From Candidatus Sumerlaeota bacterium (GTDB lineage: Bacteria; CG03; SLGR01): DNA of 8,644 nucleotides. The translations under genes and the position numbers were made by a program. Under the pieces are notes generated by a model that saw nothing but the letters and a program-made list of their open reading frames with translations, did no database searches and was not told the DNA's origin. The stretch spans positions 1-8,644 of the forward strand of contig SLGR01000195.1 in the NCBI GenBank assembly GCA_007136585.1, read 5' to 3'. Position 1 is the first letter of the stretch, and every line of letters begins with the position of its first letter. This document shows positions 1,704 through 8,228 of the stretch, piece by piece.

Positions 1704-3074
1704 ATGAACCTGTTTTATGATGATACCATAGCCTCCGTGGCAACACCGCCCGGGAAGGGGGCCCTGTCCGTTATAAGGATAAGCGGCGCAGATACTTTCG
1801 GGGTTCTTTCCAGGGTCTTTCATCCCGCCTCCGGTTCCGAACCTGCGGGGTTTAAATCACATACAATACATTACGGCATTATCAGGACCGGGGGAGAGGT
1901 CCTGGACGAGGTTATGGTCTCTGTTATGCGGGGTCCGGCAAGTTATACAGGAGAGGATACTGCCGAGATAACCTGCCACGGAGGGGTTTATGTTACCTCG
2001 GCGGTCCTGGACGCCGTCCTCGGAAGCGGCGCCCGCGCGGCTATGCCCGGGGAGTTTACCATGCGCGCTTTCCTGAACGGAAGAATTGACCTTGCTCAGG
2101 CCGAGGCTGTAAACCAGGTTATAAACGCCCGATCTGAAAAAGCCCTGAAGGGGGCTGTAAGGAACCTCAAAGGGGAGCTGGGCGAGAGACTCCGGGAGGT
2201 GCGCGAGCAGGTTAGCAGGGTAAGGGCCAGGATAGACGCGGAGCTTGAATGGGGTCAGACCCAGCAGATAGAGGCCTTTGATCCCACAGAAGGCCGAGAG
2301 GCTCTGGAAAAGGTCCGCTCCTCGGTTTTAGAGCTCTTGGAAGGGGCCGCCTCCTTCGAGAAAGTATCGGAAGGGCAGAGGGTTGTAATATGCGGACGCC
2401 CCAACGCGGGGAAATCATCTCTTTTCAATCTCATCCTTAAAAAATCAAAAAGCATAGTAAGCCCGGAACCCGGAACTACCCGGGATACGGTGGAAGGGGA
2501 TATCTCCCTGGATGGTATCCCCCTGCGCCTTTCCGATACGGCAGGGTTGGGGCTGGTTACTCCGACGGAAGTGGAGAAGGCGGCCCTGGAGAAGGCTTCC
2601 GAAGAGATCTCACGGGCCGATATAATAATATATGTAATAGACGGTCACACCGGCATATCGGTTGAAGATACGGAGGCCTTAAAGAGCTTATCGGGGCATC
2701 ACCTCATAGCTCTTATAAATAAATCCGACCTGGGACTGAAACAAGGCATAACGGAGCAACTCCCCGGGGGGGCAAAGAGAGTGGTATTCTCTTGTCTCCG
2801 CGGGACGGGAATGCGGAAGCTTACCGGGATAATAAGGGATATAACGGATAGAGAATGCGGTGACGGGGTTATGATCAACGCCAGGCAGCGTCAGCTCCTG
2901 AAGAATCTTGAAGGGTCTCTGGGCCGGGCCCTGGAGAACCTTGAGAGAGAGATGGCGGAGGTTGCTTCGGCCGAACTTTCAAGCGCTGCTTCAACCCTCG
3001 GAGAGTTTGACGGATCCCTTGCTGAAGAAGATATACTTGACAGGATATTCTCTGATTTCTGTATAGGGAAATGA
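1704..3074 (+). CDS. mnmE: tRNA modification GTPase MnmE
   Basis: MnmE is a GTPase that, together with MnmG, installs the carboxymethylaminomethyl group at C5 of U34 in certain tRNAs, using a tetrahydrofolate derivative. The 456-residue length is normal. The N-terminal domain opens with DDTIASVATPPGKGALSV, as expected for the family start, which supports the ATG at 1704 despite a poor ribosome binding site. The G domain has a P-loop GRPNAGKS at 231-238, G2 GTTRD at 257-261, G3 DTAG at 278-281 and G4 NKSD at 339-342. The protein ends in CIGK (453-456) with the conserved cysteine. The segment after DTAGL is unusual: E. coli has Arg there, here it is Gly283, and the segment up to the likely catalytic Glu (E291) is one residue longer. 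The gene overlaps the next one by ATGA. The partner gene mnmG is not in this window. Confidence 0.97.
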   Translation: MNLFYDDTIASVATPPGKGALSVIRISGADTFGVLSRVFHPASGSEPAGFKSHTIHYGIIRTGGEVLDEVMVSVMRGPASYTGEDTAEITCHGGVYVTSAVLDAVLGSGARAAMPGEFTMRAFLNGRIDLAQAEAVNQVINARSEKALKGAVRNLKGELGERLREVREQVSRVRARIDAELEWGQTQQIEAFDPTEGREALEKVRSSVLELLEGAASFEKVSEGQRVVICGRPNAGKSSLFNLILKKSKSIVSPEPGTTRDTVEGDISLDGIPLRLSDTAGLGLVTPTEVEKAALEKASEEISRADIIIYVIDGHTGISVEDTEALKSLSGHHLIALINKSDLGLKQGITEQLPGGAKRVVFSCLRGTGMRKLTGIIRDITDRECGDGVMINARQRQLLKNLEGSLGRALENLEREMAEVASAELSSAASTLGEFDGSLAEEDILDRIFSDFCIGK

Positions 3075-3859
3075 TACACTGGGCATCAATGGCGTGTTTT
3101 TATCTCAGGCGGGATGCCGCGGGTGCCGCGGCCTGGGCTTCTGAAAACGGGTTCAGCGGGATTGAGGTATGGGGTGATGTGCCCTTTTTGCACTCAGATG
3201 AGACAAGTTCCGTAGATATAAAAAATCTCATTTCGGCCGGACGGGGAATCAGGTATAGTCTTCACGGTCCGATCTACGGGGTAAACCTATCCTGCGTTAA
3301 CCCGGGAATACTGAAGGAGTCGATGAGGCAGACCCTGAAGACACTTGAATGGGCGGGAGAGCTTGGGGCTGAGCGGATGGTGATCCATCCCGGGACATCT
3401 CCGACCGCCAGGTGCGATGTGAAAGATATGGTGAGGAAGATCCTTGACTCCAGCATATCCAAGCTGAGCAAAGCTGCCGGAAAGGCGGGTGTTGAGCTCC
3501 TTTTAGAGAACGCCGGGTTAAGGGCTGAGGATACCGGGTACTCCCTGGAAGAGTTCCGCGGCATACTGGAGGATCACGGGATCGGGTGCTGCCTTGATGC
3601 CGGTCATGCAAACCTGACCTGGGGGGCTTCCGCGGCCGTATCCGCTCTGGGCCCGATGATAAAACAGTTTCATATAAGCGACAACTCGGGAGAAAATGAC
3701 GAACACCTCCCTGCGGGGAGCGGAACCGTAGAGTGGGAGGAGTACGGGAAGCTCTCAGGTGTTAATAATATCCCGCTGGTTCACGAGGTCCAGGGTTCTG
3801 AGGATCCCGAAAGGGGTATGATTGAGAGCCGGGGGTTCATAGAAAAATGTTTCACGTGA
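3071..3859 (+). CDS. Endonuclease IV-like TIM-barrel metalloprotein (AP endonuclease 2 / sugar phosphate isomerase superfamily)
   Basis: This 262-residue protein belongs to the xylose isomerase-like TIM-barrel superfamily, which includes endonuclease IV, sugar-phosphate isomerases/epimerases and CbiR-type cobamide enzymes. By motif comparison with E. coli endonuclease IV, all nine metal-ligand positions have counterparts: H65 (SLHGPIYGVNLS), H106 (VIHPG), E146 (LLLENAG), D176 and H179 (LDAGHAN), H201 (FHISDN), D210 and H212 (NDEHLPAG) and E239 (VHEVQ). That suggests a trinuclear metal site and possibly phosphodiester or AP-site cleavage, but the substrate cannot be set from sequence. The protein is slightly shorter than endonuclease IV. 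Its ATG overlaps the mnmE stop (ATGA), so translation is probably coupled. Its last codons (TGT TTC ACG TGA) lie within a parS site, so the C-terminal Cys-Phe-Thr is dictated partly by the centromere sequence. It occupies the place where mnmG often lies. Confidence 0.85.
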   Translation: MIHWASMACFYLRRDAAGAAAWASENGFSGIEVWGDVPFLHSDETSSVDIKNLISAGRGIRYSLHGPIYGVNLSCVNPGILKESMRQTLKTLEWAGELGAERMVIHPGTSPTARCDVKDMVRKILDSSISKLSKAAGKAGVELLLENAGLRAEDTGYSLEEFRGILEDHGIGCCLDAGHANLTWGASAAVSALGPMIKQFHISDNSGENDEHLPAGSGTVEWEEYGKLSGVNNIPLVHEVQGSEDPERGMIESRGFIEKCFT

Positions 3860-3863
3860 AACA
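3848..3863. promoter_or_regulatory. parS: parS site 1 (ParB binding), overlapping a stop codon
   Basis: TGTTTCACGTGAAACA is a perfect match to the 16-bp chromosomal parS consensus, fully palindromic and extended by A/T to 18 bp (3847-3864). The TGA at 3857-3859 inside it is the stop codon of the preceding TIM-barrel gene. ParB binds parS as a dimer, loads with CTP and slides outward to build the segregation complex. The cognate parAB genes lie about 1.1 kb downstream. Confidence 0.97.
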
Positions 3864-3883
3864 TCCCTGGGGGTGGCGCAGAA

Positions 3884-3899
3884 TGTTTCACGTGAAACA
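3884..3899. promoter_or_regulatory. parS: parS site 2 (ParB binding)
   Basis: A second perfect copy of TGTTTCACGTGAAACA, again extended to an 18-bp palindrome (3883-3900). Its centre is 36 bp from that of site 1, on the order of three to four helical turns. It lies in non-coding DNA. No other CACGTG core was found in the window, so these two make up the local parS cluster. Confidence 0.97.
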
Positions 3900-3915
3900 T
3901 CTATGACTTCAAACT

Positions 3916-4021
3916 CAGTCGCTGCCGGGAACCGTTTTCTCATTCTCTCAGCCTATGGCTGCTCCGAGGGGCTCCTCCCTGCGGTCAGAACAAACCCGAA
4001 AACAGATCCCGTCAGCGCCTG
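3916..4021. repeat. Structured repeat, copy A (long inverted-repeat ends)
   Basis: The ends form an imperfect inverted repeat: 3916-3939 against 3998-4021, 20 of 24 positions paired. Inside are an unpaired TCATTCTC (3940-3947), a perfect 5-bp hairpin CAGCC-TAT-GGCTG (3949-3961), a second hairpin (CCG-AGGG at 3964-3970 with CCCT at 3977-3980 and CGG at 3982-3984, one bulged G), and AACAAACCCG (3989-3998). Copy B, directly downstream, has the same order of parts. The pairing is seen in the sequence; whether it acts as RNA, as DNA, or is an intergenic repeat family is unknown. No known RNA family is recognised. Confidence 0.75.
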
Positions 4022-4029
4022 TAAGAGCA

Positions 4030-4133
4030 TACAGCCCCCGCCGGCACGGTTTTCCTCATTCTCGCCTCCGGCTCCGAGGGGTTCCGTCCTTCGGCCGCAA
4101 CAAACCCGGAAACCCGTACCGGCGGGGACTGTA
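4030..4133. repeat. Structured repeat, copy B (long inverted-repeat ends), abutting rsmG
   Basis: The ends 4030-4055 and 4108-4133 pair at 23 of 26 positions, a stronger stem than in copy A. It shares with copy A the blocks TCATTCTC (4056-4063), CTCCGAGGGG (4072-4081) and AACAAACCCG (4099-4108), and both inner hairpins: GCC-TCC-GGC (4064-4072), and CCGAGGG (4074-4080) with CCTTCGG (4088-4094). Some outer-stem pairs differ between copies yet stay paired, for example G3921-C4016 in A against C4037-G4126 in B. The right arm contains GGCGGGGA (4121-4128), the likely rsmG ribosome binding site, so folding of the transcript could hide it. Confidence 0.75.
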
Positions 4134-4134
4134 G

Positions 4135-4854
4135 ATGTATTTGGGGTATTATCAGGTGAATAAAGCGGTTCAGGAAATATACAGATGGTACAGGGATAAC
4201 CCGTCTTCCAGGAGGGAGGCTCCGGAGCTTACGGCCCTTTACCTGGAACTTCTTCTCGGGGCCAGGGAGAAGGAGAGTATAATCGGGACCCGGGAGCCGG
4301 AGGAGATACTCAGGGTTCATATAATCCCGTCTCTTCTTCTTGCCCGCAGGATAGCGGAGAGAACCGGGGCGGATATAGGTTCTGGGAACGGTCTCCCAGG
4401 CATACTCATCGCCATATACTCCCCCGGATCGGAGCTCACGATGCTGGAGCCTAAAAAAGGGCGGGCGGCCTTTCTCAGTAAGGTCATAGCGGAGACGGGG
4501 ATTGAGAATGCACAGGTCCTGCGGAAGCGGGGCGAGGATGCCGGGAGGGACCCGCTATTCAGGGAGAGGTTCGGTTTTGCCTGCGCGCGGGCTGTCGCAC
4601 CCCCGGAGGTCTCGCTTGAGCTTGCCCTTCCCCTGCTTACTGAGGGGGGAAGGTATTATGCCCAGCCGGGAGAGGAGGGTGCCCCCCTGCTTACGGATAA
4701 GCACTGCCCTCTTATAAGGGAGATGGGGGGAGAGGTGGAAGAAAAAAGCGGCGGGGTGGTGATAATAAGAAAAGTTTCTGCGACCCCTTCGAGGTTTCCA
4801 AGAAGCTGGAGGTCCATAACCGCCGCTTCGCGCTTGAAAAAGAGAAGAAATTAA
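4135..4854 (+). CDS. rsmG: 16S rRNA (guanine-N7) methyltransferase RsmG, divergent
   Basis: RsmG (GidB) transfers a methyl group from S-adenosylmethionine to N7 of a guanine in the 530 loop of 16S rRNA (G527 in E. coli). The 239-residue protein has the SAM-binding loop GSGNGLPG at 82-89 (family usually GSGaGfPG), an acidic residue after the next strand (E105 in MLEPKKGR), and ARAVA at 151-155 with LALPLL after it. The tail IRKVSATPSRFPR fits the usual IRK..TP.kyPR. It is divergent: the usual W..NLT motif before the H-x-x-(D/P)-S segment is not recognisable (EKESIIG instead), and the tail after FPR is unusual. The start is uncertain. ATG 4135 has GCGGGGA upstream but lies against repeat copy B; GTG 4156 has GGGG at 4143-4146. 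Its position between parS and parA agrees with common origin-region gene order. Confidence 0.88.
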   Translation: MYLGYYQVNKAVQEIYRWYRDNPSSRREAPELTALYLELLLGAREKESIIGTREPEEILRVHIIPSLLLARRIAERTGADIGSGNGLPGILIAIYSPGSELTMLEPKKGRAAFLSKVIAETGIENAQVLRKRGEDAGRDPLFRERFGFACARAVAPPEVSLELALPLLTEGGRYYAQPGEEGAPLLTDKHCPLIREMGGEVEEKSGGVVIIRKVSATPSRFPRSWRSITAASRLKKRRN

Positions 4855-6686: not shown

Positions 6687-8228
6687 ATGAACGACGAAAT
6701 GGATAAAGACCGTCCCCCTGAAAATGAAGACTCAGGCTCTGAGGGATTAGATTCTGAGCTCGATGGAGTAAAAGGTCCCGGGGGAGAACCGGAAATAAGC
6801 GGGGAGGGGGAAAAGAAAGAAGAACCCTCAATAGAGATCCCCGGATTGGAAGACCTGGAGGATGCCGGGAGCCCACCGGATACCCCTGAAGGAGCCGCTC
6901 CCGGCCCGGAGAAGGAAGGCGGGGAAGAGACGGAGGGGGGCGCATACAGCCTTGATGATATTTCACTGGATGATATGCAGGAAGTTCCGGATAAACCCTC
7001 CGGGGAGAAAGAGCCCTCCGTCGAACCTGAAAAGGAGCCGGAGGAGGCAGGGGAAACCCCGGAAGTCCCTGAAGGATCCGCCCCCGGTCCGGAGAAGGAA
7101 GGCGGGGAAGAGACGGAGGGGGGCGCATACAGCCTTGATGATATTTCACTGGATGATCTGCAGGAAGTTCCGGATAAGCCCGCCGGGGAGAAAGAGCCCT
7201 CCGGGGAACCTGAAGAGGAACCGGAGGAGGCTCCGGAAACCCCGGAAGTTCCTGAAGGAGCCGCCCCCGGCCCGGAGGATGATGAGGAGACGGAGGATGA
7301 ATCCTTCAACCTTGATGATATTTCTCTGGATGATTTCAAGGATATATCCCCTGATACCCCCGGAGATGAGGATATTGAAGATTTTGACCTGGAGAGTTTT
7401 AACATAGATGATGAGATAGAGGCTCTTACATCCGGGGATGCCCCCCCCTCGGACGATCTGCCCGAAGACCTGAAAGAGGATCCGGGAGACCTCCCGGAAC
7501 CCGGGGGGGTTTTTGACCTGACCGGAGAAGAGATTGAGGATACACCCGGGGAAAAGGATACTGAGACTCCCTCTACGGAACCCGTTCCGGAGGTTTCCGA
7601 GCCGGTCCGTGAAGAGTCTCTGCCGGAAGATGAATCTCCGGAAGATCCAGGAGCTGAGGAAGAGACCCGGGAAGAAGATCCTGGAGAGGATCCGTCCGGA
7701 AATGAATCCGAAAAGGATGAGACCGGGGAGGAAGAAAACGATGCAGATGAAGATGATAAGCTCTCTGGAAAACGCCGGTCGCGGGTTCTGCCGGTTCTTA
7801 TTCTGCTTATCCTGGCGGGAGCCGGGGTTTATTACTATCATACTGAGGTCCAGGAGATAGAGTTCATTTCATCTATGGTTCCGGGTCCGCCTCCCCGGGC
7901 ACCGGAGGTTCCCGAGGATGAGGTAAGGGTTGAGCCCTCGCGGAGAGAGCCTGCGCATCCGCTCGCCTACTATGACGCGCGCGGTCTTTTCAGGGACCGC
8001 AGGGACGGTGTGACCTCCCTGACCTATGAGGCCCCTGCCAGTCTTGGGGATGTCCGCGCATATTACAGGGAGAACCTCTCCGCCCGTGATTACAGCATAA
8101 CTGTGGATGAGCTTCGTGCAGACGAGGAATACGCCTATATGGTATTTACCAGGGACGGGCGCGACATGCATATAATTCTCAGGGAAGAGAGCGGCCGGGT
8201 CAGCGCTTACCTGAGTTACCTGGATTAA
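6687..8228 (+). CDS. Acidic Pro/Glu-rich repeat protein with one membrane helix, function unknown
   Basis: I do not recognise this 513-residue protein. Residues 1-360 are extremely acidic and rich in Pro, Glu, Asp and Gly, most likely disordered. They contain a 61-residue repeat: 69-129, 130-190 and a partial third copy from 191. Each carries EGxAPGPE and then (S/N)LDDISLDD. Related acidic words (FDLESFNIDDEIE, GVFDLTGEEIED) continue to about 285. A basic cluster KRRSR (362-366) precedes a single membrane helix (about 367-384). By the positive-inside rule, the acidic part is cytoplasmic and the C-terminus extracytoplasmic. After a Pro-rich linker (about 399-425), residues 428-513 form a small domain with TYEAPASLGDVRAYYRENL and AYMVFTRDGRDMHIIL, which resembles alpha/beta domains seen at the end of other anchored proteins but matches nothing I can name. 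Its place after parB suggests a link to the origin region or envelope, which is inference. Confidence 0.85.
   Translation: MNDEMDKDRPPENEDSGSEGLDSELDGVKGPGGEPEISGEGEKKEEPSIEIPGLEDLEDAGSPPDTPEGAAPGPEKEGGEETEGGAYSLDDISLDDMQEVPDKPSGEKEPSVEPEKEPEEAGETPEVPEGSAPGPEKEGGEETEGGAYSLDDISLDDLQEVPDKPAGEKEPSGEPEEEPEEAPETPEVPEGAAPGPEDDEETEDESFNLDDISLDDFKDISPDTPGDEDIEDFDLESFNIDDEIEALTSGDAPPSDDLPEDLKEDPGDLPEPGGVFDLTGEEIEDTPGEKDTETPSTEPVPEVSEPVREESLPEDESPEDPGAEEETREEDPGEDPSGNESEKDETGEEENDADEDDKLSGKRRSRVLPVLILLILAGAGVYYYHTEVQEIEFISSMVPGPPPRAPEVPEDEVRVEPSRREPAHPLAYYDARGLFRDRRDGVTSLTYEAPASLGDVRAYYRENLSARDYSITVDELRADEEYAYMVFTRDGRDMHIILREESGRVSAYLSYLD
6891..7073 (+). repeat. 183-bp coding repeat, unit 1
   Basis: First of the direct repeats in the acidic-protein gene, with a period of 183 bp (61 codons). 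Bases 6906-6974 are identical to 7089-7157 in unit 2 (69 bases with no change), so the duplication is recent or has been kept alike by recombination. Confidence 0.9.
7074..7256 (+). repeat. 183-bp coding repeat, unit 2
   Basis: Second unit, in frame with the first. Differences from unit 1 are scattered in the second half, for example 7158 (C instead of A, changing Met to Leu in the LDDMQEV/LDDLQEV segment) and the KEPSVEPEKEPEEAGE/KEPSGEPEEEPEEAPE segment. Confidence 0.9.
7257..7340 (+). repeat. Partial, diverged third unit
   Basis: Starts with the same EGAAPGPE segment and keeps (N)LDDISLDDF, but lacks the KEGGEETEGGAYS stretch (replaced by DDEETEDESF) and does not continue into the EPEKEPEE half. 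It looks like an older unit from which the two intact copies may have been amplified. Confidence 0.75.

Follow-up and report, generated by a model that had tools for sequence, protein, structure and literature searches.

Bacterial operons are usually thought to be hostile to insertions, owing to polarity. HEARO, the IscB-associated mobile RNA, is a structured mobile element that integrates at ATGA/GTGA. Rickettsia palindromic elements (RPEs) are dispersed repeats of ~150 bp with an open frame that is compatible with the genes they have entered (reviewed in PMC10969869), and Chunjie of Geobacter uraniireducens and ERIC are small non-autonomous palindromic elements, some of which lie in operons (cited in PMC10969869). 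REPs are palindromic, lie near coding regions and occur in many phyla; the tagged REPs are hairpins of 20-40 bp with a GTAG or CGTC tag, and GTAG REPs often give flanking genes their TAG stop (PMC3733652). Here we describe a dispersed palindromic insertion family whose copies in the window genome lie at gene junctions, starting from two members found between parS and rsmG.

Results

Two structured units between parS and rsmG

The window, the whole stretch of 8,644 nucleotides that was analyzed, is contig C155 of a draft genome of 1,882,076 bases in 257 contigs, 88% complete; its features are collected in Table 1. A preliminary description had placed two adjacent units of one architecture upstream of rsmG, and we found that their positions, stems and common words all check out. 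A repeat finder placed the arms of unit B at 4030-4055/4108-4133, with a complementarity of 88%. The folding of both strands, also proposed earlier, gave z scores against dinucleotide shuffles of -3.7 and -4.1 for units A and B on the plus strand and -4.3 and -6.0 on the minus strand, with 0 of 200 shuffles as good in any of these comparisons. The words TCATTCTC and AACAAACCC are common to A and B, and over 28 genomic copies the majority of their positions vary little or not at all. While the two units stand as placed, the conserved unit of the family is longer, ~190 nt in the order RTGAAACGTCCATGAGTATATACTCRCAAAAAGAAATGAAAATACTGAGTCAGCC - structured core - CTGTAAATGTATTGGAGGGTATTTTCAG-RTGA, and this extent, the position at a stop/start junction and the open frame had been missed.

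Table 1. Coordinates of the units and neighboring features in the window.
Feature	Position	Strand	Remarks
TIM-barrel gene, sugar-isomerase-like (name read from sequence)	3071-3859		upstream of units
parS site 1	3846..3865	+	overlaps stop of upstream TIM-barrel gene
parS site 2	3882..3901	+	G002 has one parS here
MFHVKHL* stub at second parS	3883..3906	+	matches rsmG N-terminus in relative G002 (MFHVKHISLIREFF...)
Open frame through A (other frame, FLIL) and B (standard frame)	3903..4163	+	translation
Unit A	3912..4025	+	outer stem 3916-3939/3998-4021; without the family's usual 5' and 3' flanks
Unit A hairpin 1 with CTC/GAG clamp	3945-3968	+	
Unit A hairpin 2 region	3969-3997	+	
Unit B with 3' flank GGGGTATTATCAG	4028..4155	+	outer stem 4032-4055/4108-4131
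Unit B hairpin 1	4061-4078	+	
Unit B hairpin 2 region	4079-4107	+	
rsmG (GidB)	4156..4854	+	Pfam PF02527, E 3e-28

The frame that runs through both units begins at an ATG (3903) overlapping the TGA of the MFHVKHL* stub and ends at a TAA (4161-4163) overlapping the GTG of rsmG. Relative G002, from the same taxonomic family, has the TIM-barrel gene directly followed by one parS and then by rsmG, which starts at the parS ATG. That start persists in the window as the stub, and rsmG of the window genome most probably starts at GTG 4156, at the RTGA boundary of the element. The two parS palindromes of the window (3846-3901) are identical and lie 36 bp apart; the TGA of the TIM-barrel gene (3857-3859) sits inside the first, and the one parS of G002 doubles as the rsmG start codon. 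Farther along the window, at 6852-7342, are tandem 183-bp repeats (two full copies, 89% identical, and a partial one at 71%) within an acidic repetitive ORF (6687-8228) that has long overlapping antisense frames.

A dispersed family and its empty sites

Units A and B belong to a family of palindromic insertions dispersed over the genome. BLAST of the window genome, an incomplete sequence of 1.9 Mb, returned 32 matches, and a covariance model built from 28 own-genome copies (R2) returned 51, about 34 of them on the sense strand of the element and the remainder antisense echoes produced by the palindrome. The covariance-model search suggested in the preliminary description thus turned up many dispersed copies, not confined to parS-rsmG, and its conjecture of an intergenic repeat family was right. 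Another of its conjectures, an origin-proximal DNA element, is refuted: an origin or parS element is ruled out by the genome-wide dispersal together with the empty parS-rsmG site in the relative. The family has two subfamilies that differ in hairpin 1 (GCAGCCnnnGGCTGC versus GCCTCCGGC), the same contrast as between units A and B, and further tandem pairs occur on contigs C11, C78, C109 and C217. Within the taxonomic order of the window genome, two other genomes have three copies, two in G007 (one degenerate) and one in G005, each between genes. At L180:20-260 (G000:C238), hairpin 1 is replaced or enlarged by ~60 nt of unrelated sequence and the frame is still open.

Empty sites were found in relatives for both of the 2 sites examined, rsmG (G002) and tyrA-aroA (G002 and G005). 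A tyrA-like gene (name read from sequence) and aroA overlap at ATGA in G002 and G005, where the junction reads ATATATGAATG and TTATGAAC, respectively, with no insert (overlap sequences AATATATGAATGAC and GAATTATGAACTTT). In the window genome, copy L023 lies between the two genes as GGATGA-insert-TTGA. RTGA flanks the insert at either end, where the empty sites have a single ATGA; this may reflect a target-site duplication or an RTGA that the element itself carries. Like MITEs, the family is small, dispersed and without a transposase gene of its own, and no autonomous copy was present among the loci retrieved.

Position at stop/start overlaps and an open frame

The window genome has its copies between co-directional genes and in the orientation of these; wherever a copy, terminal ones included, has a following gene, that gene comes directly after the unit on the sense strand. 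Most of the near-complete copies have the TGA of the insert's frame overlapping, as RTGA, the ATG, GTG or TTG that opens a long frame downstream, usually one of 175-954 codons. On the upstream side, the overlap between the previous gene's stop and the start of the insert is exact in five copies (L022, L023, L030 and two in L021); in others, this start lies within ~25 nt of that stop. The insert also supplies the downstream gene with a Shine-Dalgarno-like GGAGGGT. The genes downstream are unrelated housekeeping genes, among them those for EPSP synthase, UvrA, 5-FTHF cyclo-ligase, a FliG-like protein, an efflux protein, an amidohydrolase and GidB. Copies thus lie between genes with stop/start overlaps and not inside genes, with one possible exception at uvrC (L017). 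There, at L017:2788-2942, the FLIL frame of a copy upstream of the uvrC-like gene continues open into the gene, a possible RPE-like N-terminal fusion.

The ~55-codon frame is stop-free in 20 of 24 near-complete copies, while the other two frames are open in 0/24 and 5/24 and shuffles in 13%. Random placement of substitutions on the consensus would leave 7.0 of 17 copies open, against 14 observed (P about 5e-4, an optimistic value, since the copies share ancestry and the open frame is partly inherited). Full-length copies differ in length by 6, 12 or 18 nt. The C238 copy is longer by 54 nt, and even so its frame is open and kept in register. A frameshift is present in two copies; stops or frameshifts in the standard frame occur in L019, L021 at 4820, L029, L030 and the second L017 copy. 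Together, the stop/start overlaps and the stop-free frame would let ribosomes pass from gene to insert to gene, and with RTGA at both ends, an open frame and the Shine-Dalgarno-like stretch, the upstream and downstream genes would stay translationally coupled.

A divergent branch in another phylum

We found an exact match of a longer pattern in 1 of 84,980 named genomes, a MAG labelled Gemmatimonadetes (JABHFS01, G061), which is not among the 16 genomes of the window's phylum. The core pattern CTCATTCTCGC-N1-20-GCTCCGAGG occurs 23 times in G061, in 11 of 291 genomes sampled around it (G061 included, 1-25 times each) and in 3 of 386 genomes around G142; a reversed control pattern was absent from all 291 genomes sampled around G061. 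This divergent branch, with the same fold and unpaired words, is present in at least one other phylum, where a genome may contain as many as 25 copies. Its order is outer stem, CTCATTCTCGC, covarying hairpin 1, GCTCCGAGG, covarying hairpin 2, AATCCG, outer stem; the sequence of the outer stem differs among copies, and hairpin 2 is missing in a few. A covariance model built from foreign copies only (R1) recovers own-genome copies with E down to 4e-7, including unit A at 3917-4020 (E 1.9e-3) and unit B at 4031-4132 (E 3.6e-4). Conversely, R2 recovers foreign copies with E down to 1e-10, and loci without the element gave no match with R1 or R2. By sequence and fold, this is a cross-phylum class. 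At L141:1420-1470, another palindromic repeat (CATTGCGAGGGAGCGCAGCGACCGTGGCAATCTCCCGCAATGCGGGG) adjoins an element of the class.

Read-through is not shared by the whole class, since elements in the other phylum lie in intergenic DNA in either orientation relative to genes. At one orthologous intergenic site in G079 and G083, where the flanks are 93-96% identical, the core is oppositely oriented between similar outer arms. This site corresponds to L085 and L091 around 1412-1576, and L085 has ~180 bp extra.

These observations bear on the likeliest of the alternatives, although we consider it improbable: that the copies are a shared cis-regulatory leader, a structured translated segment that would control downstream translation, perhaps through a factor binding the junction words. 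In the window genome the element does always immediately precede a gene start on the sense strand, and it has both a Shine-Dalgarno-like motif and unpaired words that are conserved. However, the downstream genes have no common theme, relatives lack the element at rsmG and aroA, and in another phylum it is found without regard to gene orientation and can be inverted in place.

Pairing: RNA or DNA

Over the family, 87.4% of cells were paired, compared with 82.5% after column shuffling and 32-44% when partners were slid, and both sides had changed in 54 cells versus 18.7. Conserved pairing, first noted from the two units, therefore holds over the family, but the example then chosen, G3921-C4016 against C4037-G4126 (columns 10/105), proved atypical: over 28 copies these columns are Watson-Crick in 9, G-T in 4, A-C in 3 and mismatched in 12. 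The pairing, first read as the mark of selection on structure, need not reflect selection on RNA structure: in the other branch departures from pairing are balanced between G-T (67) and A-C (63) and the core of one orthologous copy has been inverted in place. In the window genome A-C exceeds G-T, 46 to 27, mostly at two column pairs. The balance and the in-place inversion in the other branch point to a palindrome at the DNA level, which may act there as DNA rather than RNA; function of a transcript strand is hard to reconcile with them. Stems could also stay paired in the absence of selection for an RNA, through correction templated by the hairpin or through recombination of one arm with the other, which makes covariation by itself weak evidence in this case.

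A free structured RNA of unknown family, made from either strand, would account for the strong folding of both strands, the compensatory changes and the conserved AUCCU hairpin loops of the other branch. We regard it as very unlikely, given the balanced departures, the orthologous copy inverted in place and the location of copies inside gene junctions. No Rfam family was found at gathering score, nor anything relevant in permissive Rfam scans of the window and five class loci. In L042-L060 and L079-L104, from the other branch, both hairpin loops are mostly ATCCT/ATCCCT (AGGAT/AGGGAT on the opposite strand). A CsrA-type decoy RNA, for which the minus-strand AGGAU loops of that branch might speak, was rejected because own-genome loops are without the motif and the class is dispersed and invertible.

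Searches for a mobilizer and for a product

No match was found in IMG/VR or in phage and plasmid collections, and the motif letters matched only unrelated papers in the literature. Neither a transposase nor a recombinase could be linked to the element. Likeness to attC, group II introns and HEARO was considered as well. Slightly less likely than a free RNA is a repeat of the REP/REPIN type, mobilized by a REP-associated tyrosine transposase (Y1, RAYT). The window genome has one Y1 gene, of 307 aa, and the minus strand reads GGAGC-hairpin-GCGA, which resembles tagged REPs. Yet no element copies flank that gene, and PF01797 (Y1) was undetected in five element-bearing genomes with up to 25 copies (G061, G066, G069, G079 and G085), on which ground we reject RAYT as a general mobilizer. 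At >100 bp with a three-way junction, the element is also larger than the 20-40 bp of REPs (PMC3733652).

Diversity at the three codon positions is equal (0.25/0.21/0.25), indicating that no peptide is conserved while openness is kept. In unit A, L017 and G007 the conserved words fall in a different frame (FLIL); words read in different frames are evidently kept at the nucleic-acid level. Pfam and NCBIfam scans of three frame translations gave no match, RPE peptide families included. The least probable alternative, a coding family in which the ~55-aa peptide is the selected product, would fit the open frame, the similar peptide ends in most copies (MSIYSQK...GIFR*) and a related peptide in G007, but founders on the even variation of codon positions, the shift of the motif to another frame and the lack of a Pfam or NCBIfam match.

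Discussion

With dispersal, two empty sites, sense orientation, open frames and stop/start overlaps observed, we favor, at a probability of roughly 0.7, a dispersed non-autonomous palindromic element that inserts at RTGA gene junctions and carries a stop-free frame, so that ribosomes can cross it and polarity is avoided. A single strand of the element would fold into a three-way junction with a long outer stem, two hairpins and fixed unpaired junction words. Copies would occupy the RTGA stop/start overlap between two co-directional genes and leave RTGA at both ends, such that the upstream stop overlaps or adjoins the start of the frame and the stop of the frame overlaps the next start. Ribosomes would pass from gene to insert to gene, melting the hairpins on the way, and the operon would escape polarity. 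The frame is presumably translated, and ribosomes probably read through the insertion into the next gene. The element would be selfish palindromic DNA recognized as a folded single strand, perhaps by an enzyme that reads the junction words, and the copies surviving in this phylum would be those that ribosomes can cross; being translated through may be why copies survive here. A broader proposal, which we put forward tentatively, is that a cross-phylum mobile class is recognized as a folded three-way junction by way of its fixed unpaired words and that one lineage of it inserts a coupled mini-cistron at RTGA overlaps.

If this is true, a repeat family that occupies the stop/start overlap at either end and keeps its frame open would show how selfish DNA can live in operons, a mobile class colonizing them without breaking or uncoupling genes. 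It would also account for the runs of small orphan ORFs and the unusual start codons of such genomes, and it would provide a natural system of translationally coupled spacers. That the junction words are common across phyla points to a recognition machinery.

Among known systems, HEARO differs in that the element described here is smaller and has no Rfam match. RPEs, operon-tolerated MITEs and tagged REPs are the nearest analogues, and as far as tested none of them shares sequence, fold and position with the present family. Tagged REPs and REPINs differ in that the element described here is a three-way junction of >100 bp with other words and is present where Y1 is undetected. Fixed junction words and the precise RTGA stop/start position distinguish it from operon-tolerated MITEs such as Chunjie and ERIC, and no cognate transposase or shared terminal inverted repeat was found among the loci retrieved. 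Like an RPE, it is a dispersed palindromic repeat that carries an open frame. Many RPEs, however, are in-frame insertions within genes that lengthen the host protein, whereas copies of the window family stand between genes as a cistron of their own.
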